In this document: in pieces, positions 5,536-19,909 of the stretch
Layout of the letters: each line of letters starts with the position of its first letter
Position numbering within the stretch: the stretch's first letter is position 1
From: a virus
IMG/VR virus record: IMGVR_UViG_3300042691_016649
Coordinates: 1 to 20,253 of that record
DNA: 20,253 bases
Direction: 5' to 3' (one strand)
Position numbers and translations under genes: made by a program
The notes under the pieces: model-generated
Databases searched by the model: none
What the model saw: the letters and a program-made list of their open reading frames with translations, nothing else
Told to the model about the DNA's origin: nothing

Positions 5536-6560
5536 GGGCGAGCATCCTTGCCGCCGCCGGTGACGCATCCCGCGTTGCCGCAGACGCGGAGATTGCGCGG
5601 CTGCGCGCCGAGGTTTCGTCGTTGCGCGGCAAATATAAGGCGGCGCTGGATTCGCTGGCGGCAGCAGACCAGCGGGCCGAAGCGCTCGCGGGGCTTTCGG
5701 GGATCTCCAGCCGCCGCCCGCCCGGTAGCCGGCGCAAAGGCAAGGCGTCGCCGCTGACGGCGATCCTAGTGCTGTCCGATTGGCACGTTGAGGAATTCGT
5801 TGACGCCGACACCGTCGCCGGCAGGAACCACTACACGCTTGAAGTCTGCGAGAGGCGGGTCGCGGAGATGACTCGTCGCGCGATGATGATGCTCGACCAC
5901 GAACGCCGTCTGGCTCCCATCGACCGCGTCGTCGTGGCGGCGCTGGGCGACTTCATCACCGGCGCGCTGCACGAAGACACACCGAGACTGCTCGATCCCC
6001 TGCCGGCCACACGCCTGGCGGGCGAATTGTTGTCTGGGGTAATCGACACCGTGGCAGACTCCTACCGAGATGTGATCGTGGCTACGTGCGTCGGCAACCA
6101 CGGCAGGACGACCAAGAAGCCAACGATCAACACGCTGTTCTCCTACGAACACAACCTCTACCTGACGATGCAGGCGGCGAACCGCCGGAAGAACGTCGAG
6201 TACCGCGTCGGCAGCGGCTACCACAACTGGCTCGACCTCGACGGGTTCAAGGTTCGCCTGCATCACGGCGAGGCAATCAAGAGCAACGGCGGCATCGGCG
6301 GCGTCTCGATTTCGGCGAACAAAGCGATCGCGCAGTGGAACAGGATGGACACCGCCGGCCTGGATGTGTTTGGGCATCACCACCAATTCAGTTGGAGCTA
6401 CGGGCGCTACGTATCAAACGGAAGCCTCATCGGATGGAACGCATTCGCCAATTTCATCCGCGCCGAATACCAGCCCCCGGTGCAGTCGCTGGTGCTGATC
6501 GATAGCGAGCGCGGCGTCACCAAGGCTATGCCCATATTCTGCGAGGAGGCCAGACGGTGA
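5514..6560 (+). CDS. Calcineurin-like metallophosphoesterase
   Basis: This encodes 348 residues, beginning MAKRKELRAS at TTG 5514 with AAGGA ten bases upstream; the frame stays open further upstream, but only as an out-of-frame shadow of the previous gene. Residues 1-65 form a charged helical or coiled-coil segment, followed by a basic linker (SRRPPGSRRKGK). The catalytic domain shows the ordered motifs of the superfamily: LSDWHVEE (Asp89, His91), ALGDFITG (Asp146), VGNHGR (Asn195, His196), LHHGEA (His250/251) and FGHHHQ (His288-290). These residues build a two-metal site for phosphoester hydrolysis. Phage members have been suggested to act on nucleic acid ends or nucleotides; the substrate here is unknown. 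It is followed, with a GTGA overlap, by nucleotide-metabolism genes. Confidence 0.88.
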   Translation: MAKRKELRASILAAAGDASRVAADAEIARLRAEVSSLRGKYKAALDSLAAADQRAEALAGLSGISSRRPPGSRRKGKASPLTAILVLSDWHVEEFVDADTVAGRNHYTLEVCERRVAEMTRRAMMMLDHERRLAPIDRVVVAALGDFITGALHEDTPRLLDPLPATRLAGELLSGVIDTVADSYRDVIVATCVGNHGRTTKKPTINTLFSYEHNLYLTMQAANRRKNVEYRVGSGYHNWLDLDGFKVRLHHGEAIKSNGGIGGVSISANKAIAQWNRMDTAGLDVFGHHHQFSWSYGRYVSNGSLIGWNAFANFIRAEYQPPVQSLVLIDSERGVTKAMPIFCEEARR

Positions 6561-9644: not shown

Positions 9645-10682
9645 ATGCCGCTCGACCGCGACGATTACGGGCGCCCCGCCAAACTCCCGCCGGGGATGCG
9701 GCACTGGCCGGAAGACCGCGCCGATGTGACCGACCCCGTCGAGATCGCGCGGCTCTACAACCGCGGCTTCGCCGGCGCGTACCGCGACCAGGAGGCGACC
9801 GAGGCGCTCCACGCAAGTTTCGGCAGCAGGCAGACGTTTGCCGATTGGGCAGCGAGCGACAGCGGACTCGCCGGGGCCGGCGAAGGCAAGTTGGCGCTGC
9901 TCTACGCATACGTGCTGAAACTGGCGCCCCGGGCCTATGACGTCGCGCAAAAACGTGGCGACTGCGTGAGTTTCGCATTCAAGAACGCATGCGACGCCGT
10001 GCGCGCGACAGAGATTCTCGCCGAGGGTCAGCCAGAGGCGTGGATCGCCGAAACTTCTCCTGAGTGGCTGTATTGGGGGCGAGGCCACAGCGGCGAGGGC
10101 GCGTCGTGCGCGACGGTTGGCGAGTGGGTGTCGGCGAGGGCCGGCATGATGTTGCGTCGCAACTATCCGGAGTTCGGGTTTGACGTCTCCACCTACGATC
10201 CGCGAGTCGGCCAGGACGGCAGATCCGGCCCACCTCGAGCCGCCATCGACGCAGCGAAATTGCACAACGTCGCGATGCTGACGCGGATCACATCAATCGA
10301 GGAGGCCCGCGACGCGATTGCCGCTGGGCATGCGCTGTCGTGCTGCTCTGGGTTGTCGTGGAGCGATCAGCGGGACGCTCGCGGCGTGTCGAAGCGCACT
10401 CCAGGCGGGTGGGCGCACGCCATGTGCTGGTCGGCGGTCGATGCGCGAGTTGACACCGTGAAGCAATTCGGCGGGCCACTGTTCGGAGTCAACCAGAGTT
10501 GGGGCAATTGGAACCGCGGCGGATGGAGTGCCGACTACGGCACCTGCCCCACCGGCATGTTCTGGATTCTCCCGCAAGACGCGGCAACCGCCATCAGTCA
10601 CGGCGGCACGTATGCCGTCGCCGATGCCCGCGGGTTCCGCCCCACAAAATTGCCGAGCCTCGGCGCCAGGGGGAGACTGTGA
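9645..10682 (+). CDS. Papain-like cysteine peptidase, candidate endolysin
   Basis: This encodes 345 residues from ATG 9645. Three segments match the catalytic blocks of C1-type peptidases in the right order. QKRGDCVSFAFKNACDA places Gln102 and Cys107 like the oxyanion Gln and the nucleophile before a long helix. GGWAHAMCWSAVD holds His258 at the start of a strand. FGVNQSWGNWNRGG (Asn283) resembles the NSWG..W block. No signal peptide is seen at the N terminus. The gene lies among small membrane proteins, where phages usually keep the endolysin, so cleavage of peptidoglycan stem peptides is a reasonable inference. A virion protease is the main alternative. No known muramidase, amidase or lytic transglycosylase gene is in the window. 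Confidence 0.72.
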   Translation: MPLDRDDYGRPAKLPPGMRHWPEDRADVTDPVEIARLYNRGFAGAYRDQEATEALHASFGSRQTFADWAASDSGLAGAGEGKLALLYAYVLKLAPRAYDVAQKRGDCVSFAFKNACDAVRATEILAEGQPEAWIAETSPEWLYWGRGHSGEGASCATVGEWVSARAGMMLRRNYPEFGFDVSTYDPRVGQDGRSGPPRAAIDAAKLHNVAMLTRITSIEEARDAIAAGHALSCCSGLSWSDQRDARGVSKRTPGGWAHAMCWSAVDARVDTVKQFGGPLFGVNQSWGNWNRGGWSADYGTCPTGMFWILPQDAATAISHGGTYAVADARGFRPTKLPSLGARGRL

Positions 10683-12649: not shown

Positions 12650-12775
12650 TGACGCATTGAGCGACGAATCGACCAAGCGTGCCGGCCTACATCCGGCGCG
12701 CATGGCGAAATCGTCACGACACGACTTGGAGGCACCACCCCTACGGGCTAACAACCCCCGTGTCCTGTCCCCGCC

Positions 12776-12781
12776 ATTATA
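12776..12781 (-). promoter_or_regulatory. Perfect TATAAT hexamer facing integrase
   Basis: Plus-strand ATTATA reads TATAAT on the minus strand, about 195 bases upstream of the integrase start, and stands out in a very G+C-rich region. No good -35 hexamer lies 16-18 bases upstream, and the region there falls in the GC hairpin at 12788-12815, so it might need an activator or be chance. Confidence 0.28.
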
Positions 12782-12828: not shown

Positions 12829-12839
12829 AATTGTTGCCT
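12829..12839 (+). promoter_or_regulatory. ATTGTTG intergenic element, copy 1 (short form)
   Basis: AATTGTTGCCT lies 14 bases before the ATG of the double-HTH gene, next to its ribosome site. The same eleven bases recur at 15173. It shares only the AATTGTTG core with the longer copies at 13479, 16825 and 19056. Confidence 0.35.
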
Positions 12840-12852
12840 GGAGGACTCGCAA

Positions 12853-13398
12853 ATGGTGGAGCGGACAGGTTCCGACGAATGGATTTCGATCACCGAGGCC
12901 ACGCAGATCATGGGCTGCTCAAAGTCCTGGGTTCTGCTGCTCCTCCAGCGAGGCGCCCTGGCCGGTCAAAAAATCCACTCCAGAGCGTGGGTCGTGAGCA
13001 AGCGGGCCGCGGAGGCCGACGCCTCCCGCTACCGCGAAGACGCAGCCGCAGGGAAGGTGGGCAGGCCGAGGGCGCAGCAGCAGACCCCGCCCAAGAAGGC
13101 CGGCTGTGGACGGCGGAATACTCGACATGTAGACTTGGGATCGAGGGCCACGGACATGAAGATCGCATACGACGACGCCGGCGTGATTCCGGCATCCGAT
13201 CTGATCGGCATCAAGACGGCGGCAGAGCTGACCGGAATCCATCGGTCGTGGTTGCACGCGCTCATCTCGCGCGGCGACGTTCAGGTGGTCGAGATCGACG
13301 GCAAGCCGTTCGTGCGGCGGTCGCAGGTCGAGAAAATGCCTCGCAACAAGCCCGGGCGCCCGCGGAAAACCTCCGCGATTTCAGCGAAAAAGCGCTGA
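12853..13398 (+). CDS. Double helix-turn-helix DNA-binding protein, excisionase- or repressor-like
   Basis: This encodes 181 residues from ATG 12853, with GGAGGA seven bases upstream; longer in-frame starts would read through the GC hairpin. There are two similar domains. Residues 10-50 (WISITEATQIMGCSKSWV...RGALAGQKIHSRAWVV) and 117-162 (LIGIKTAAELTGIHRSWLHALISRGDV...GKPFVRRSQVEK) each look like a MerR/excisionase-type winged helix. Each is followed by a GRPR basic motif (residues 70-73 and 168-171), like an AT-hook minor-groove contact. Its location next to the divergent integrase fits an excisionase or lysogeny regulator. Which of the two it is cannot be told from sequence; an autoregulatory role is suggested by the dyads right after it. 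Confidence 0.78.
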   Translation: MVERTGSDEWISITEATQIMGCSKSWVLLLLQRGALAGQKIHSRAWVVSKRAAEADASRYREDAAAGKVGRPRAQQQTPPKKAGCGRRNTRHVDLGSRATDMKIAYDDAGVIPASDLIGIKTAAELTGIHRSWLHALISRGDVQVVEIDGKPFVRRSQVEKMPRNKPGRPRKTSAISAKKR

Positions 13399-13400
13399 CC

Positions 13401-13429
13401 TTGACCTTTTTCTGACACCGCGTCAGAAT
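13401..13429 (+). promoter_or_regulatory. Candidate early promoter with internal operator
   Basis: TTGACC (13401-13406, five of six consensus) and CAGAAT (13424-13429, four of six) are separated by 17 bases. The perfect dyad TCTGAC-ACCGC-GTCAGA (13411-13427) fills the spacer and enters the -10 element, as repressor operators do. It would drive the early genes starting at 13518. Confidence 0.45.
13411..13427. repeat. Inverted repeat TCTGAC/GTCAGA, possible operator
   Basis: Six-base perfect arms with a five-base centre lie in the gap between the double-HTH gene and the first early gene. The position inside the candidate promoter makes a repressor site likely. A transcription terminator is less likely since no T-run follows. 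Confidence 0.5.
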
Positions 13430-13438
13430 ATCTCTCGT

Positions 13439-13458
13439 TCGGTCGAGCGTTCGACCGA
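13439..13458. repeat. Perfect 8-bp inverted repeat, possible operator or leader hairpin
   Basis: TCGGTCGA, four bases GCGT, then TCGACCGA gives a perfect 20-base dyad. It sits downstream of the candidate promoter's -10 element, in the leader of the early transcript, and could be a second operator or an RNA stem-loop. No T-run follows. Confidence 0.5.
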
Positions 13459-13478
13459 TGAAACCAGCGGTCACGCCG

Positions 13479-13495
13479 AATTGTTGGCGTGAGCG
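13479..13495 (+). promoter_or_regulatory. ATTGTTG intergenic element, copy 2 (long form)
   Basis: AATTGTTGGCGTGAGCG differs by one base from the copy at 16825 over its length. It lies just upstream of the ribosome site of the next gene. A partial dyad (GTTG ... CAAC to 13501) overlaps it. Confidence 0.5.
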
Positions 13496-13517
13496 CACAA
13501 CGAGGGAGACGATGACC

Positions 13518-13907
13518 ATGTCGAAGATCACGGTTGACCTGCTGAAGAAGATGCGCGGCGACATCGAGGCCGCGATGAAGACCGTCGAGGCCGCTCACGG
13601 CGTCAAGTTGTCGCTGGGCCGCTGCACCTACTGCGAGGACACGGCGACGTTCAAGTTGGAGGTGGCCCGCGTCGGTGACGGCGGCGAAGCCATCACGAAG
13701 GACGCCGCCGACTTCAAGTTGTACGCGCCGATGCTCGGCATCGCCGCCGACATGCTCTTCAAGACGGTGCGGCTGCTCGGCACCAACTACAAGATCGTCG
13801 GACTCAAGCCCCGGCGGGCGAAGCCGGTGCTGGCGATCAGCGAGCGCGACGGTCGCACCTACTGCTTCACGGCAGACGCCATCAAGTCTGCCCACTTCGT
13901 TTCGTGA
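13518..13907 (+). CDS. Conserved-type early phage protein, unknown function
   Basis: This encodes 129 residues from ATG 13518, with AGGGAG nine bases upstream; ATG 13512 in the same frame would add Met-Thr. The N-terminal half is a helix (KITVDLLKKMRGDIEAAMKTVEAAHGV) followed by a beta-type domain with ATFKLEVARVGDGGEA, DAADFKLYAPMLGI, GTNYKIVGLKPRRAKPVLA and RTYCFTADAIK. This pattern (a GxxYKIVGLKPRxxKxPVLA strand block) resembles a protein family present in many phages, but I know of no function. It is the first gene after the candidate regulated promoter, so it is likely expressed early. Confidence 0.75.
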   Translation: MSKITVDLLKKMRGDIEAAMKTVEAAHGVKLSLGRCTYCEDTATFKLEVARVGDGGEAITKDAADFKLYAPMLGIAADMLFKTVRLLGTNYKIVGLKPRRAKPVLAISERDGRTYCFTADAIKSAHFVS

Positions 13908-13950
13908 TCAATCTCCACTCCACCCAACCACCAACCAAGAGGGCATGACG

Positions 13951-14502
13951 ATGAGCAAGATGAGCGATTATCAGATCCAGTGCGACGCAGCGGCCAGAGA
14001 GCAAGGCGTCGATCTTGTGATCAGAGCGCTGCGGGCATTCGGCACCGAGGCCGACCTGCTTCAGACGGGAGGGTTCACGATGTGTTTCGGCGTCGCCCGC
14101 CCCGGCGGCAAGTACATCCTCGGCAACGCCAGCGGCGCAGCCGAGTATGGGAGCAGCGAGTGCTACCCCGAGGACATCGCGGCCCTCATCTGCTCCTTCT
14201 CCGAGGACTCGCACTCGTCGGAGTTCGTGGCCGACGCGGTCGCCGCCCACATCGACGGCAGGTCGCCGAGTGATTCCACGATGTCCGCGATGTTCCGGTC
14301 GTTGCCGTTCGCGGCGATCACCGACCACGAGGCCGATGTGCTGGCAGCGGAGATCAAGAGCGGTCTGTATCACCGCGCGATGGCTCGTTTGTTCGATGAC
14401 GTGATGACGCATCAGCAGTGCGGAAACATGATCAAGGCCGACACGCTCGTCGGCGTGGTGAACCTGCTGGCGCAGGCGAACGAAAACGGAGGTGTCCGAT
14501 GA
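13951..14502 (+). CDS. Hypothetical early phage protein
   Basis: This encodes 183 residues from ATG 13951 (AAGAGGG seven bases upstream); an in-frame ATG at 13945 lies six bases earlier. Residues M-S-K-M-S-D-Y-Q-I-Q start a soluble, acidic and mostly helical protein with a short Gly-rich middle (VARPGGKYILGNASGAAEYG). No known domain, membrane segment or catalytic motif is seen. It ends in an ATGA overlap with the next gene, so the two are probably co-translated. Its role is unknown. Confidence 0.72.
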   Translation: MSKMSDYQIQCDAAAREQGVDLVIRALRAFGTEADLLQTGGFTMCFGVARPGGKYILGNASGAAEYGSSECYPEDIAALICSFSEDSHSSEFVADAVAAHIDGRSPSDSTMSAMFRSLPFAAITDHEADVLAAEIKSGLYHRAMARLFDDVMTHQQCGNMIKADTLVGVVNLLAQANENGGVR

Positions 14503-14960
14503 ACGACCGTCTGCTGGCGTCCCTGCGTGAGGCTCTGCGGTTCATCGAGGTGCGCGAGTGCTACCACGGCTCGATGACCGCGGATGAAGTCGAGGCCGCG
14601 GTGCTGTCCTACCGTGCCGTGTCGGCGGTCGAGATCGGGGCGAACTCTGCCAATGTGCTGGCACGGTTTAATCTGGCCGAAGCCCGTGCCTTAATCGCCG
14701 AGGCCGACGCGCCGCGAGTCGAGAAGCATCGCTCCGGCGACGGGTGGATTTTCGGCTGCCAGCAGGGACACATGCACCGTGGCGTGATGCTGGTGCGGAC
14801 CAGCGGCGCTGGGCTGTACCGGCTGTCGGGCGCCCAGACGCTGGTGCGTGGCGACACCACCGAGATCGTGCAGCATGCGTCCCCTGCGATGCAGATGGCA
14901 TACGGTGACGCGGCTGCAATGGCAGAGCGGTGGTGCATCACCGGGACGTGGAACCAATAA
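14499..14960 (+). CDS. Hypothetical early phage protein
   Basis: This encodes 153 residues from ATG in an ATGA overlap; GGAGG lies just upstream. The N-terminal half is helical (RLLASLREALRFIEVRE, EVEAAVLSYRAVSAVEIG, AEARALIAEA). The C-terminal half has a short motif with Cys and His, IFGCQQGHMHRG, then a strand-rich end (TLVRGDTTEIVQ). The Cys/His pair is not a complete zinc site. No family is recognised. A 22-base gap with a strong ribosome site (CAGGAGG) comes before the next gene. Confidence 0.72.
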   Translation: MNDRLLASLREALRFIEVRECYHGSMTADEVEAAVLSYRAVSAVEIGANSANVLARFNLAEARALIAEADAPRVEKHRSGDGWIFGCQQGHMHRGVMLVRTSGAGLYRLSGAQTLVRGDTTEIVQHASPAMQMAYGDAAAMAERWCITGTWNQ

Positions 14961-14982
14961 CCCGTAGCAGGAGGATCGTGAG

Positions 14983-15168
14983 ATGGTTGCGATGATCAAC
15001 GTGGACGATGATCGGACGCGGGCCAGCATCCTGCTGGTGGCTCTCGAGAACGCTGTCACAGTGCTGGAGGCCGACGACGCGCTCCTGTCCCTCTTCGACC
15101 CCAAGTACAGCGGCACTCCGGAATGCATCGCCGAGTGGCGCGCCCTAGTCGAATCGATGCGGTCTTAG
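14983..15168 (+). CDS. Small acidic early protein
   Basis: This encodes 61 residues from ATG 14983, with CAGGAGG before it. It is acidic and largely one helix pair (TRASILLVALENAVTVLEADDALLSLF), ending in ECIAEWRALVESM. It could be a small regulator or an interaction protein, but no family is recognised. The strong ribosome site and tight spacing support translation. Confidence 0.65.
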   Translation: MVAMINVDDDRTRASILLVALENAVTVLEADDALLSLFDPKYSGTPECIAEWRALVESMRS

Positions 15169-15172
15169 GTTC

Positions 15173-15183
15173 AATTGTTGCCT
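15173..15183 (+). promoter_or_regulatory. ATTGTTG intergenic element, copy 3 (short form)
   Basis: AATTGTTGCCT is identical to the copy at 12829 and is followed by a CACACACACGACAG run. It lies about 30 bases upstream of the next gene's ATG, before a GAGAGGG ribosome site. Confidence 0.35.
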
Positions 15184-15212
15184 CACACACACGACAGAAA
15201 GAGAGGGTTCCA

Positions 15213-15677
15213 ATGACGTTCAAGGAGTTCCAGCGGGGCCGGCAGCATGTGGACGACGTCGCCGCAGCGGTGCAGCAGCCCGGGATGTGGGACAGGCCGC
15301 AGAGCGGGTTCATCTATGACGGGACATGGTTCATTCTTGATCCGGCGCAGGAGGGCGACCCCTACTTCACCGAGATCGAGAACACTTCGCCAGAGGGGAC
15401 GCTTGAGCAGGTCGAGCGACGGCTGTACCTGTTCGCAGCCACCAGCAGCCCCGGCTGGGTCGATCACGACTTCGTGGTCGTCTACCAAGTGTGCGACGAC
15501 GACGACGACGAGTTGCTCGGCGTCATCGAGTGCGTGATTGACGAGGGGGTTCGCCCGCGTCGGTGGTCTGACACGCTGCCCGCGTGGGTCGCCGATTGGT
15601 TCCTCGGCAACGACCACAGCGATGCCGCCCTCGCCTGCCCGCACGACCCGTTCTTCATCGTCGGGGGTGCCGCGTGA
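15213..15677 (+). CDS. Hypothetical acidic early protein
   Basis: This encodes 154 residues from ATG 15213, with GAGAGGG five bases upstream. The protein is acidic, with an Asp-rich run (CDDDDDELLG) in the middle, many aromatics (GFIYDGTWFILDP, LPAWVADWFLG), and beta-like N- and C-terminal halves. No catalytic or membrane motif is recognised. An acidic, aromatic-rich small protein could mimic nucleic acid or bind a host protein, but that is speculation. It overlaps the following GTG by four bases. Confidence 0.72.
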   Translation: MTFKEFQRGRQHVDDVAAAVQQPGMWDRPQSGFIYDGTWFILDPAQEGDPYFTEIENTSPEGTLEQVERRLYLFAATSSPGWVDHDFVVVYQVCDDDDDELLGVIECVIDEGVRPRRWSDTLPAWVADWFLGNDHSDAALACPHDPFFIVGGAA

Positions 15678-15985
15678 AGACCGTCTATCACGACGAATGG
15701 CGGGTGTCTCCGAGAGTCGTGCTGCGGAGGGGCGACAAGTTCCGCGTCAGCGGTGGCCCGTATTGGCGAACGCCAGACGGGGCGAAGGTGCGGATGGCGG
15801 CGCGCGGCGTGATGAAGTTCGTCCGCGCCGCCGTCCGCGGCAAGGTGGTGATGATCGAGGCTCACGGCGAGGACGGGTTCACCGTCCTGCACATTGAGGG
15901 CCGCAGGAGGAACAGGGTTGATCCGGCACTGGTGTGCCGGCCCTACAGGATCACGGGACGGGTGCGAAGCAAAGGAGCGGCATGA
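15674..15985 (+). CDS. Small basic beta protein of a family common in phages
   Basis: This encodes 103 residues from GTG in a GTGA overlap. The block RRGDKFRVSGGPYWRTPDG followed by KVRMAARGVMKFVR and a basic ending (GRRRNRVDPALVCRPYRITGRV) looks like small basic phage proteins that I associate with early or packaging regions. The repeated strand pattern suggests a small beta-barrel, and the charge suggests nucleic-acid binding. No function is known to me. The next ATG overlaps its TGA (ATGA). Confidence 0.72.
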   Translation: MKTVYHDEWRVSPRVVLRRGDKFRVSGGPYWRTPDGAKVRMAARGVMKFVRAAVRGKVVMIEAHGEDGFTVLHIEGRRRNRVDPALVCRPYRITGRVRSKGAA

Positions 15986-16344
15986 TGGCACAGGCGCATG
16001 GACAGCGCGCGACAAGTGGTCACCGGAAGATCAGATCGAAGATCGATGACGAGAGTCTGAAAAGCATGTGGGCTACCGAGATGACGGTCATGGAAATGTG
16101 TGCCGCGTTGGGCGCGCTTCAGCATGACGTCATGCGTCGCGCTCGGCTGCTGGGGCTTCCTCGGCGAAGCCGGGGTGGCACATACGAGCGGGCCGCAGAC
16201 CCATCCCGCGAAGAGATCGAGCGCATGTGCGAAGAGATTCAGGCAAGGCACTGGACTGAGGAGGAACGCAGCGTCCGCTGGCAGGGCAATGGCACTTGCC
16301 ACTGGACGCTGCCCGTGGTTAGCGTTGAAGAATCCCAAACCTAG
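15982..16344 (+). CDS. Helix-turn-helix-type regulator candidate
   Basis: This encodes 120 residues from ATG 15982 (ATGA overlap), with AAAGGAG upstream. Residues from about 34 to 60 (MTVMEMCAALGALQHDVMRRARLLGLPRR) read as a helix-turn-helix with a recognition helix ending in Arg-rich residues. A basic Arg-Ser-Arg-Gly-Gly linker and a segment PSREEIERMCEEIQARHWTEEERS follow. This layout (DPSREEIxxxxxxIxxxWTEEER) occurs in small DNA-binding regulators of phages and bacteria. DNA targets are unknown. It may control early or late genes. Confidence 0.68.
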   Translation: MMAQAHGQRATSGHRKIRSKIDDESLKSMWATEMTVMEMCAALGALQHDVMRRARLLGLPRRSRGGTYERAADPSREEIERMCEEIQARHWTEEERSVRWQGNGTCHWTLPVVSVEESQT

Positions 16345-16359
16345 AAAGAGGGTGATCCG

Positions 16360-16692
16360 ATGAGCGTGGTGTTATTCGCAGCAGGGTTCGTGGCCGGCGC
16401 CGGATGCTGGTGGGCCGTCGCCGCCGTTCGCCGACGCAGCACCGTCAGCGAGGCTGCGCTGGTCGCGTACAGCAACCGACTCGATGACGTCGAGCGGCTC
16501 TGGAAGCCTGCCGGCGTCGGCGTCGGATACAGCATCGACTACGGCACCGGCGAGGTAGATCTGACGATCCGCGCCCCAAACTGCGGCGAGGACGTCGCGT
16601 TTCATCTCGCCACCCCCAACGTCACCCGTCGCAAGCGCGGCGTGGCAGAGACGCTGGGAATCTCCACTGAAGTCCCGCCGAGCCTCCGATGA
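16360..16692 (+). CDS. Small membrane-anchored early protein
   Basis: This encodes 110 residues from ATG 16360, after a GAAAGAGGGTGA ribosome region. Residues 3-22 (VVLFAAGFVAGAGCWWAVAA) form an N-terminal membrane helix or uncleaved signal, followed by VRRRS, so the N terminus is predicted outside or in the membrane with the basic side inside. The soluble part is beta-like (GYSIDYGTGEVDLTIRAP). No family is recognised. A membrane-anchored protein in the early region could act at the host envelope, for example in superinfection exclusion, but nothing shows this. It overlaps the next small gene by four bases. Confidence 0.68.
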   Translation: MSVVLFAAGFVAGAGCWWAVAAVRRRSTVSEAALVAYSNRLDDVERLWKPAGVGVGYSIDYGTGEVDLTIRAPNCGEDVAFHLATPNVTRRKRGVAETLGISTEVPPSLR

Positions 16693-16826
16693 AGATCAGT
16701 CGACACCTCGATGCCGCGATCAGAGCGCTGGTGCTGGTGCGGCTTGGGCAGGAGTTAGGGACAGACTCGACGCTGGCACGCGCTGTCCACGACCTCGCCA
16801 CGCTCGTCCTGTCGGCGCTGCGATAA
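16689..16826 (+). CDS. Very small early protein
   Basis: This is a 45-residue frame from ATG in an ATGA overlap with the previous stop. It is basic and helical (MKISRHLDAAIRALVLVRLG, then STLARAVHDLATLVLSALR). The TAA stop overlaps the first bases of an ATTGTTG element. The short length and lack of a family leave some doubt, but the overlap and helical character favour translation. Confidence 0.5.
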   Translation: MKISRHLDAAIRALVLVRLGQELGTDSTLARAVHDLATLVLSALR

Positions 16827-16844
16827 TTGTTGTCGTGAGCGTAG
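16825..16844 (+). promoter_or_regulatory. ATTGTTG intergenic element, copy 4 (long form)
   Basis: AATTGTTGTCGTGAGCGTAG begins at the stop codon of the 45-residue gene. Nineteen bases (16826-16844) are identical to 19057-19075. It lies in the leader before the helicase gene and precedes two hairpins (16879-16897 and 16913-16940). Confidence 0.6.
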
Positions 16845-16878
16845 ACACCGAGGCGGGTCAGCGATAAAACCGCCCCTA

Positions 16879-16897
16879 CCACGGCAGGAAGCCGTGG
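16879..16897. repeat. Hairpin in helicase leader
   Basis: CCACGGC and GCCGTGG (seven-base arms) flank AGGAA. It has no T-run after it. The loop AGGAA could resemble a ribosome site and be sequestered, but the gene start chosen is further downstream. Confidence 0.45.
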
Positions 16898-16912
16898 AGG
16901 CAGGATGCCGGG

Positions 16913-16940
16913 GCGGCGCCGCGAGGGATTGCGGCGCCGC
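16913..16940. repeat. Repeated self-complementary decamer in helicase leader
   Basis: GCGGCGCCGC occurs twice (16913-16922 and 16931-16940), eight bases apart. Each copy is its own reverse complement, so the two can also pair into a ten-base stem. It lies about 30 bases before the helicase start and could affect translation or transcript processing. Confidence 0.45.
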
Positions 16941-16968
16941 TACCGGCACCACGGGCAAGGACGCCGGC

Positions 16969-18363
16969 ATGCTCAAGGACGAGCCGTACCCGCACCAGCG
17001 TGAGATCGCCGGCAGGATCGAGCGGCAGCGGAATCTGCTTGTCGCCGCCGACATGGGAACAGGCAAGAGCCGCGCCGTGTTGATGGCGTGTGCCGACGAC
17101 CAGTTCCTCGTCATCGTGGCCCCGGTGGCTGTCGGCCCCGCGTGGGTCAAGCAGATCGCTTCTTGGGACGACGGGCGGCAGGTTTTCCAGGCATTCGACG
17201 GCCACGCAAATCGCCGGCAGGCTGCGGTGACTGCCGCGGTCGGCGCCGCTGGCCGGCGGGCGCTGATCCTCAACTACGATTGGTTCTGGCGAGACAAGCC
17301 GCTGGCCGCGCTCTTGGCTGCGGCGCGGCACGAATCGACTCGCCCAGCGGCAATCGTGGCCGACGAGTCGCACAGGGCGAAGTCGCCGTCGAGCCGAGCC
17401 AGCCGCGCCCTGCACAGGCTGGCAGCAGCGTGTCCGACCGCCAGGAGGCTCGCGCTCACCGGAACGCCGATGCCGCTGGGGCCGCAGGATGTCTACGCGC
17501 AGGCTCGGTTCGTTGACCCATCCGTATTCGGAACGAACCACCGATCATTCCTGTCGCAGTTCTTCCACACCGACCCTATCTACCCGTCGCGGGTCACCGG
17601 CACTAAGAATCAAGAAGAATTCTCCCGGCGGCTCGACCGGATCTGCTATCGGGTCAGGGCCGACGACGTCCTGCAACTCCCCGAGGCGCTGCACGAGACG
17701 GTGCGGGTGCAACTCCCGCCGTTGGTCGAGCGCGTGTACCGCGAGATCGAGCGGGCCGTCGCGTTGGAGATCGCCGGCGGCACGGTGAACCTCGCGAACG
17801 GCATGGTCAAGTTGCTTAGACTTCAGCAGGCGACGAGCAGTTATCTCGGAACCGACGACGGCGACCGATACCTTGAGCCTGTCCCGGCGAAGATCGCCGC
17901 GCTTGAAGATTGGATGCAAGACCTGCCAGCCGACGAGCCGGTCGCTGTCTTCTGCCGATTCCGCCATGACCTCGATGAGCTCTCAAAAATGTCGGCGCGC
18001 CGCGGTCGGCGTCACGCCGAGTTGAGCGGTCGCGAGAACACGCTGGACGCGTGGCAGCGCGGCGAGTGCGACATGCTGGCAGTCCAGATTCAGTCGGGCG
18101 GCGCCGGCATAGACCTGACACGCTGCGGCGACCGGCCATGCCGCTACGTGGCCTACCTGTCGGTCGGGTTCAACGGCGGCGACTACCAGCAGTCGCTCGC
18201 GCGGGTGCGACGGCCAGGGCAAACGAGTTCGTTCGTCCGCTACTACCACTTCGTCGCCGCCGGAACCGTGGACGAAGCCGTGTACGGGGCGCTTCGGAAG
18301 AAAGCCAACGTGGTCGAGGCAGTTCTTGGTTCTCTGGCCGGCACGACGCCGGCCCGGGTCTGA
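16969..18363 (+). CDS. SNF2-family DEAD-like helicase
   Basis: This encodes 464 residues from ATG 16969 (AAGGA seven bases upstream); an in-frame GTG at 16894 would add 25 residues through the hairpins. Helicase motifs in order: PHQ near residue 8, Walker A AADMGTGKSRA (residues 26-36), the DESH box IVADESHRAKS (about 130-140), LTGTPMPLGPQD (163-174), and in the second lobe QIQSGGAGIDLT followed by QSLARVRRPGQ (from about 408) with the arginine residues of motif VI. The enzyme couples ATP hydrolysis to movement on DNA or remodelling of protein-DNA complexes in the cytoplasm. Phages often carry such an ATPase in the replication or recombination region. Its exact target is unknown. Confidence 0.88.
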   Translation: MLKDEPYPHQREIAGRIERQRNLLVAADMGTGKSRAVLMACADDQFLVIVAPVAVGPAWVKQIASWDDGRQVFQAFDGHANRRQAAVTAAVGAAGRRALILNYDWFWRDKPLAALLAAARHESTRPAAIVADESHRAKSPSSRASRALHRLAAACPTARRLALTGTPMPLGPQDVYAQARFVDPSVFGTNHRSFLSQFFHTDPIYPSRVTGTKNQEEFSRRLDRICYRVRADDVLQLPEALHETVRVQLPPLVERVYREIERAVALEIAGGTVNLANGMVKLLRLQQATSSYLGTDDGDRYLEPVPAKIAALEDWMQDLPADEPVAVFCRFRHDLDELSKMSARRGRRHAELSGRENTLDAWQRGECDMLAVQIQSGGAGIDLTRCGDRPCRYVAYLSVGFNGGDYQQSLARVRRPGQTSSFVRYYHFVAAGTVDEAVYGALRKKANVVEAVLGSLAGTTPARV

Positions 18364-18380
18364 AACAGGAGGTGGTTGTC

Positions 18381-18629
18381 ATGGACGACGCATCGGATGA
18401 TCGGCCTATTTTCGCACGCGACTATGACGACCGCTGGGTCATTGACCAGGCGGAATACATGGGGCTTGTGAAGGTGCTGGTGCGCGCTCGCGCCGTCGTG
18501 CGGGCCTTTCAGAAGAACGGAGACGGCAGTGTGCGAGTCCCGCCGCGCGCTGCTGGCGATCTGCGGGTGTGTTTGCAGGAGTTTGCTGGGATCGATCAAG
18601 CGAGGAGGATGCCATGTCGGCTGCGATGA
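18381..18629 (+). CDS. Small hypothetical early protein
   Basis: This encodes 82 residues from ATG 18381, after a CAGGAGG ribosome site. The protein is acidic at its start (MDDASDDRPIFARDYDDRWVID) and helical after that (YMGLVKVLVRARAVVRAFQ), ending in a basic tail. It shares 16 bases with the next gene. No family is recognised. Its place between the helicase and a coiled-coil protein suggests a small accessory replication role, which is inference only. Confidence 0.65.
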   Translation: MDDASDDRPIFARDYDDRWVIDQAEYMGLVKVLVRARAVVRAFQKNGDGSVRVPPRAAGDLRVCLQEFAGIDQARRMPCRLR

Positions 18630-19057
18630 CCGAGTCTGCAACGCTCGACGGCTTGAAGGGGCTTTTGGCCCAGGTCACCGAGAAGCGGAAGCAGATGGAA
18701 GAGATGAGTGCGAAACTGAAGGCGCTGCGCATCGAGGCTGAAAACCTCGAGCGTGTCGCCGCCGAGCAATTGGCCGGGATCGAGGGGTTTCGTTGCCACG
18801 GGAAAACGTGGTGGGCCGGCATCGATCTGCACGTGAACTGCGTGTCGGCGAACCGCGACAAGATCATTGCCGCCGCGAAGTCGGTGGATCTGGACGCGGT
18901 GAGCGTGAACACCAGCCGCATCAAGGGCTGGCTGCTGGAGGAGGCGCAGAAGCGTCGCGACGCCGGCCAGGACGTCGAGAAGTTCGCCGAAGGGACGCCG
19001 TTTGAAGGTTTGGTGAGCGAGTACAGCGAGAAGCGGCTGTATCACCGCAGCGTCTGA
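18614..19057 (+). CDS. Coiled-coil phage protein of unknown function
   Basis: This encodes 147 residues from ATG 18614, with GAGGAGG five bases upstream. Residues about 11-55 (LDGLKGLLAQVTEKRKQMEEM ... KALRIEAENLERV) form a long amphipathic coiled coil. The second half contains a WWAGIDLHVNCVSANRDKI segment, then VNTSRIKGWLLEE and GTPFEGLVSEYSEKRLYHR, a set of blocks that I associate with a phage family of unknown function from replication regions. It could be an oligomeric DNA-associated protein. The next gene follows a 54-base leader with an ATTGTTG element. Confidence 0.7.
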   Translation: MSAAMTESATLDGLKGLLAQVTEKRKQMEEMSAKLKALRIEAENLERVAAEQLAGIEGFRCHGKTWWAGIDLHVNCVSANRDKIIAAAKSVDLDAVSVNTSRIKGWLLEEAQKRRDAGQDVEKFAEGTPFEGLVSEYSEKRLYHRSV

Positions 19058-19081
19058 TTGTTGTCGTGAGCGTAGTTGTTG
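19056..19081 (+). promoter_or_regulatory. ATTGTTG intergenic element, copy 5 (long form, with extra TTGTTG)
   Basis: GATTGTTGTCGTGAGCGTAG (19056-19075) shares 19 bases with copy 4 and is followed at once by a second TTGTTG (19076-19081), giving an 18-base spacing of TTGTTG units. It sits about 30 bases before a very strong ribosome site (AAGGAGGT) of the next gene. Confidence 0.6.
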
Positions 19082-19111: not shown

Positions 19112-19909
19112 ATGGCACGCGCGATCGAAGGTGAGTTGGTGTCGGCTGCGAAGGCTGCGGCGCAGGATGGCGAGTTCCGCCTGTCTGTGCTGGATGAGGG
19201 TTCGGAGGTGGCGGAAGCGATGCGGGTAAACCTCTCCACTGGCGAGACGATCAGTCCCAGCCTGCTGGAGCGGGTTCCGATGCCCACCGGGGGATCGACT
19301 ACGTGGTCGTTCACGGTCAACGGAAACGACATCTCCACGAAAGAGATCGTCGGCGTCCCCGTGTACTTCGCGCCCAGGCTGACGCTGTGGCCGACCGATG
19401 AGCCGAGCGGCAAGTCGCCGGTGCTGGTGGCGAATGATCTGATGACCGCGCACCGCGTGAGCGAGGAGATTGGCGACCTCGACCCCGCGGTGCTGGAGGC
19501 GGCTCGGATCGGCGACAAGACCTATTCGCTCCAGAAACTCTGGTACGCGCAGTGGGGCAGCGGTCGCAACGGCAAGGGGAAGCGGATGCGGGAAAGCCGC
19601 ATCATCTGCATCCTGCGCGAAACCGATGCGTGGCCGCTGCTGATCCAGTGCGGCGCGATGTCGGTTGGGCCGCTGTCGGAGTTCTTCGTTCGGCTGTCTG
19701 TGCCGTACTACCAGAGCGTGATCGGGCTGTCCCTCACCAAGGAGCAGAACGCCGCCGGCCAGCCGTACGCGCGTGTCAAGCCGAGGCAGATCGCCAAGTT
19801 GACGCGGGAGCAGGGTCAGCGCCTCAACGCCACCTACACGGCGGCGCTGACTCGCATGATGCAGTCGGTCGGTGCCGGCGGTGCCTCCGGTGCCGAGTTC
19901 GCCGGCTGA
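19112..19909 (+). CDS. Phage replication-region protein, conserved C-terminal domain
   Basis: This encodes 265 residues from ATG 19112 after an AAGGAGGT ribosome site. The N-terminal half contains a strand-rich ISTKEIVGVPVYFAPRLTLWP segment. The second half has a compact domain with IICILRETDAWPLLIQ, SEFFVRLSVPYYQSVIGLSL, NAAGQPYARVKPRQIAKLT and a final helix, matching the end of a phage protein family often found next to replication genes (patterns like ELSLxxxxNAxGxxYSRxxxR). Related proteins often have a Cys-rich middle; here that middle looks reduced. I know of no proven function; single-stranded-DNA or replisome binding is a guess. The primase-polymerase gene follows. Confidence 0.74.
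   Translation: MARAIEGELVSAAKAAAQDGEFRLSVLDEGSEVAEAMRVNLSTGETISPSLLERVPMPTGGSTTWSFTVNGNDISTKEIVGVPVYFAPRLTLWPTDEPSGKSPVLVANDLMTAHRVSEEIGDLDPAVLEAARIGDKTYSLQKLWYAQWGSGRNGKGKRMRESRIICILRETDAWPLLIQCGAMSVGPLSEFFVRLSVPYYQSVIGLSLTKEQNAAGQPYARVKPRQIAKLTREQGQRLNATYTAALTRMMQSVGAGGASGAEFAG

Follow-up and report, generated by a model that had tools for sequence, protein, structure and literature searches.

We document a short element that recurs in the gaps between the early genes of a phage and of its relatives. The element is repeated, follows the strand of transcription, keeps its position with respect to genes, is restricted to phages, is selected as nucleotide sequence within one gene, and switches type genome-wide. 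Judged from sequence comparison, it may be an elongation-control operator that works like the stoperators of phage L5 without belonging to that family, a reading to which we give a probability of about 0.5.

The window, that is, the whole stretch of DNA analysed (20,253 nt), is a complete IMG/VR record of a 20-kb fragment, and all virus records used here are fragments or of uncertain completeness. ATTGTTG lies in gaps on the + strand of the window at 12830, 13480, 15174, 16826 and 19057, and does not occur on the - strand; a sixth + strand match, within an exonuclease-like gene at 6026..6032 (GAATTGTTGTCTGGGG), is probably due to chance and possibly a weak copy of the element. The string AATTGTTG occurs five times in the window, against 0.26 expected by chance. 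When the window's ten gaps were subjected to 2000 dinucleotide shuffles, in a test corrected for the search across all words, no shuffle had any 7-mer in five gaps (0/2000) or a shared string of 19 bases (0/2000, the longest being 15). The first-pass annotation of this DNA had pointed to these five gaps, all in the same orientation, and to a 19-base identity between the copies at 16826 and 19057; both observations hold, the identity being exact. Its (A)ATTGTTG core stands as ATTGTTG in all five gaps and fails in the leading base, which is G at 19056. A search of the window for the 16-mer with up to three mismatches returned 13480, 16826 and 19057 only, with the single mismatch at 13480 that had been reported.

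The short copy AATTGTTGCCT at 12829..12839 (+) precedes by 23 nt the gene for a two-HTH protein, for which it is possibly an autoregulatory site. The copy AATTGTTGGCGTGAGCG at 13479..13495 (+) occupies the gap between this HTH gene and the first early gene, 32 nt from the next start and downstream of the single sigma-70-like promoter that the region yielded, and a second short copy, again AATTGTTGCCT, sits at 15173..15183 (+), 4 nt past a stop codon and 39 nt before the next start. Each full copy shares bases with the stop codon of its upstream gene (TAATTGTTG and TGATTGTTG). The first, AATTGTTGTCGTGAGCGTAG at 16825..16844 (+), covers the TAA of 16689-16826 upstream of an SNF2-type helicase gene, 68-143 nt from its start, a range that reflects the uncertain start of the helicase; the other, GATTGTTGTCGTGAGCGTAG at 19056..19075 (+), covers the TGA of 18614-19057, 55 nt before the next start, in a gap that also carries the element in relatives. 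The gap at 13908-13950 has no copy. With starts 23 to 68-143 nt away, the earlier description of copies lying just before ribosome sites does not hold for all of them. Separately, the stretch at 16879-17003 holds a hairpin, CCACGGCAGGAAGCCGTGG; after it come a ribosome site and a possible basic ORF of 32 aa that overlaps the helicase start.

Megablast of the window against known phages gave no match and no close DNA relative, and searches of IMG/VR proteins with the helicase and the protein at 19112-19909 gave none either. The exact 16-mer was found in nine IMG/VR stretches as single, scattered occurrences in unrelated contexts, which we attribute to chance. The successful route ran from the protein at 9645-10682 to G004 and then to a helicase alignment. 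A search with the peptidase-like protein returned a Phycisphaerales contig and G004, a virus record of 69.7 kb whose early genes follow the order seen in the window (int, HTH, helicase, 18614 homologue, 19112 homologue, primase-like gene). Next came prophage-like regions of Planctomycetota genomes (G303, G049, G737 and G745) and then G755, and the conserved downstream helicase led to 49 loci; protein searches gave about 40 related phages and Planctomycetota prophages in all. By these protein similarities, the window phage is part of a large, largely undescribed family related to Planctomycetota prophages, and the related prophages serve as the guide to its putative host.

In the relatives, the element is of the type GATTGTTCGG-nTAC-CCnAAC and forms a single, compact conserved block of about 20 bp. 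Across the 49 loci, ATTGTTYGG occurs 132 times on the operon strand and never on the other. G004 has nine copies of this type on one strand and none on the opposite one, and in G755 the split is 8 to 1, with no occurrence of the reversed pattern. Among 38 core loci freed of near-duplicates, ATTGTT as such is found in 164 operon-strand contexts versus 36 on the other strand, and the consensus G-ATTGTTCGG-[GA]T[AT]C-CC-N-AAC emerges from the operon-strand set only. Conservation of the left half is partly circular because the copies were selected on it; an orientation-neutral scan with GTTNGGN4CCNAAC also revealed this polarity, by way of the 5´ ATT flank. The family consensus, GTTYGGN4CCNAAC, is partly palindromic, and the window version alone is asymmetric, having only ATTGTT, the orientation and the position in common with it. 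For the window-type (G7) element, GNCGTGAGCG may be the full site.

The element belongs to the phages rather than to their hosts. The G745 pattern TTGTTYGGNNACYCNAA has five matches in the 3.2-Mb host genome, all on the prophage contig and on one strand, and control matches in this genome number zero. Across 397 Planctomycetota genomes, the consensus was found 13 times versus about nine for the control, which is near background; it is therefore not a host motif, and a host-wide motif can be set aside. The proposal in the first-pass annotation of a phage-specific regulatory element is borne out.

The position of the element relative to genes was examined for 115 strong copies, counting upstream ORFs of at least 60 codons and taking 575 random positions as controls. 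The first A of the element is shared with the stop codon of the upstream ORF in 49 of the 115 copies and in none of the controls. Downstream, the distance to the next start that has a ribosome site is 31 nt or more (median 43 nt) and reaches about 150 nt in the family, and the offset to the Shine-Dalgarno sequence varies. Copies are spaced one every 1-4 kb. Of 26 distinct core-family sequences, 17 contain ATTGTT in the gap before the homologue of 19112-19909 and none its reverse complement; the window, G755 (ATTGTT) and G745 (TTTGTT) carry the element there as well, and among eight distant relatives tested none has ATTGTT in this gap (0/8). The annotation had proposed to look for the element in matching gaps of relatives as against random scatter, and the former is what we found. 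The start codon of HTH1, an Xis-like HTH protein encoded beside the integrase, is overlapped by a copy facing int in 18 of the 20 int loci, a set that includes near-duplicates. This copy is antisense to the HTH1 gene, and its conservation may in part be that of the HTH1 ribosome site.

One conserved copy lies well inside a gene, at codon ~161 of a helicase gene, about 480 nt in. It reads [AG]TTGTTCGN-NTA-NCCGAAC and is a near-perfect palindrome, GTTCGGATATCCGAAC (L089:10481 and homologous sites across phages). Rare codons dominate the site: GTT accounts for 16% of valine codons overall in these genes and, for NTA, ATA accounts for 9% of isoleucine codons. The in-gene copy is gone in L087, L097 and L100, where intergenic copies are likewise missing. 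Retention of rare codons, and loss alongside the intergenic copies, indicate selection on nucleotide sequence at a site remote from start codons, and this speaks against a pure translation signal.

We therefore doubt that the element is a translation leader signal, placed upstream of the ribosome site of each gene and raising or repressing initiation. Such a role would suit the location of most copies in gaps, at a median of 43 nt from the next start, and there is a precedent in the SAS and ESAS of Cluster K mycobacteriophages, which are also repeated, in the same orientation and tied to a subset of genes; ESAS, moreover, have inverted repeats that are imperfect, the left arm matching the consensus better (PMC3203893). 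SAS, however, are placed at the translation start and are partly complementary to 16S rRNA (PMC3203893), whereas the family element stays at least 31 nt upstream, is separate from a ribosome site to which it has no fixed offset, often lies over the previous stop, and has the nucleotide-conserved copy inside the helicase gene. The same copy counts against a phage-specific promoter, another of the options first suggested; such a promoter would be repeated ahead of every early gene and recognised by an unusual sigma factor or by a phage RNA polymerase. An oriented element of about 20 bp that lies in gaps and precedes many starts by roughly 30-45 nt is what it might look like. Yet the block is single, with no second box between -60 and -3 and none of the two boxes at fixed spacing of the sigma-70 type, and it is partly palindromic. 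Eight promoter-like matches were found upstream of the 115 copies, with a convincing sigma-70-like score in G004 alone, and in G745 and G004 the element lies only 13-17 nt downstream of a standard promoter. We consider a translation signal improbable and a promoter slightly more so. The sigma-70-like promoter of the window, TTGACC-17-CAGAAT at 13401..13429 (+), is the one found, against 0.8 expected in shuffles; the corresponding gap of G004 has TTGACC-17-TATCGT. A palindrome, TTCTGACACCGCGTCAGAA at 13410-13428, overlaps this promoter and a second, CGGTCGAGCGTTCGACCG, lies at 13440-13457; the two are candidates for conventional operators.

The main rival to an operator is a site that acts in RNA, where a phage factor would bind the transcribed element in nascent or mature mRNA, as a nut- or put-like antitermination signal, a pausing site or a processing site repeated along the operon. 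The nut sites of lambda and the put sites of HK022 are sense-oriented and transcribed, with a conserved block followed by a phage-variable part. The element shares these traits, being nearly always transcribed in sense orientation and having a constant 5´ ATTGTT before a variable part, much like a constant box followed by a phage-specific one. Its location just downstream of the G745 and G004 promoters would fit as well, as would the hairpins into which some copies fold. The predicted folds differ, however, and we found none common to the copies. The variable inner pair of the stem (7-16) is paired in 42 of 115 copies versus a shuffle mean of 46.2, so that covariation is not convincing, with pair 8-15 slightly above shuffles (86 versus 79.4). 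There is no conserved boxB-like hairpin adjoining a linear box, as in nut sites, and no Rfam match in the window region. The element is also present in many more copies than nut or put sites, one every 1-4 kb exceeding the need of one antitermination site per promoter, and at the HTH1 start the copy runs antisense to that gene. An RNA hairpin, which the palindromic copies had brought up as the main reading, was dropped given the differing folds and the lack of covariation at 7-16. Together with the missing Rfam match, these results lean towards recognition as sequence, most simply in duplex DNA, with binding to single-stranded RNA less likely, and we rate an RNA-level site as less probable than an operator. 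Of the four options that the first-pass annotation had left side by side, the operator thus fits best, as a directional elongation operator.

Repressors of the L5 type act at 20-30 sites oriented with transcription, most of them not at promoters; the stoperator is a 13-14-bp site without dyad symmetry, its reversal abolishes repression, and the monomeric repressor (Rep), which has an HTH and a Stoperator domain, blocks elongation when bound (PMC9283540, PMC6550527). The element resembles the stoperators of Cluster A phages (L5, Bxb1) in that there are many short sites per genome, phage-specific and absent from the host, whose orientation follows transcription (132 versus 0, with an int-facing copy in the divergent region). 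Most sites occupy short gaps between genes, at a distance from promoters, the motif varies between related phages, and there is a site near a regulator's own gene. The element differs from stoperators in being partly palindromic over 16 bp, with a polar extension on the 5´ side, in having as its candidate reader a small Xis-like protein of the HTH kind, for which we detected no relation to the L5 repressor, and in its carriers, which are relatives of Planctomycetota prophages and not actinobacteriophages; a block to elongation would here be argued by analogy. The two-HTH protein of the window is similar in size to the L5 repressor and has two HTH domains; sequence searches with it returned HTH_17/excisionase families only, with no L5-type repressor structure. 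Given the partial palindrome and this lack of a detected relation, we call the element stoperator-like in its working, not a member of the class.

The base at position 7 may give a clue to the reader. It is of one type genome-wide, C/T, A or G: G in all five window copies, and A in six of seven copies of L111, including the in-gene copy, where arginine is encoded by AGG versus CGN in nearly all others. This switch is the sole standout of the comparison within phages; a general convergence of all copies within a phage found no support in the main group, where the observed value was reached in 178 of 500 shuffles. In the C/T7 phages examined, the helix of HTH1 is [TS]D[VA]W or SDVG; the A7 phage has TQVW and the window SKSW, so that Asp goes with C/T7, Gln with A7 and Lys with G7. 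Such pairings agree with general amino acid-base preferences, and the correlation covers three types only, the two proteins that depart from Asp being also among the most divergent. In the window, the candidate reader is the two-HTH protein at 12853..13398 (+; 181 aa), with matches to Pfam HTH_17 (9.2e-9, two stretches) and to a PHROG excisionase/regulator family. HTH1 as the only reader is weakened by G764 (L201) and G769 (L202), which keep the element and HTH2 and lack int and HTH1, unless HTH1 was recently lost or lies outside the fragment records; both are possibly virulent derivatives. HTH2, of the GNPxWIA type, is in turn absent from both off-type phages, which leaves the two candidates confounded. 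The single 181-aa protein of the window may combine the roles of HTH1 and HTH2. A CsrA-family gene immediately preceding the helicase gene of the G745 prophage (L053:2813-3016, -; PF02599, 2.2e-22) could be a separate regulator. CsrA sites have a GGA core, which the element does not, and CsrA was rejected as its reader. Beside the integrase, the window has TCCTGTCCCCGCCATT at 12763-12778, next to a strong hairpin; this sequence is common to relatives and resembles the 3´ end of a tRNA gene, and for both reasons it is likely the attP core.

In the mechanism that we favour, the element would be a directional DNA operator within early transcription units, and it would most likely be bound by a phage HTH protein whose gene lies between those of the integrase and the first early protein, in the window the two-HTH protein. 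With its sites lined up in the direction of transcription along a series of gaps, the bound protein would stop or throttle elongating RNA polymerase, with the outcome that each early gene would be silenced in the prophage, and it would also act near its own gene. Binding of a protein to DNA, the identity of this reader and elongation as the controlled step are what we infer from the sequence patterns. We suggest more tentatively an undescribed phage control system, unconnected with the L5 repressor. Here a small Xis-like or HTH2-type protein would read polar, half-palindromic sites at gene ends and within a gene and would gate transcription gene by gene, the genome-wide switch in site specificity being matched by the recognition helix.

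Stoperator-type control has been described in the literature for Cluster A mycobacteriophages. If our reading is correct, a second, unrelated family would have the same layout, and silencing of a prophage by many roadblocks to elongation would have evolved more than once. The in-gene copy and the matched specificity types would then allow direct tests of why orientation matters, and the element would be the first regulatory signature for a little-studied group of phages.
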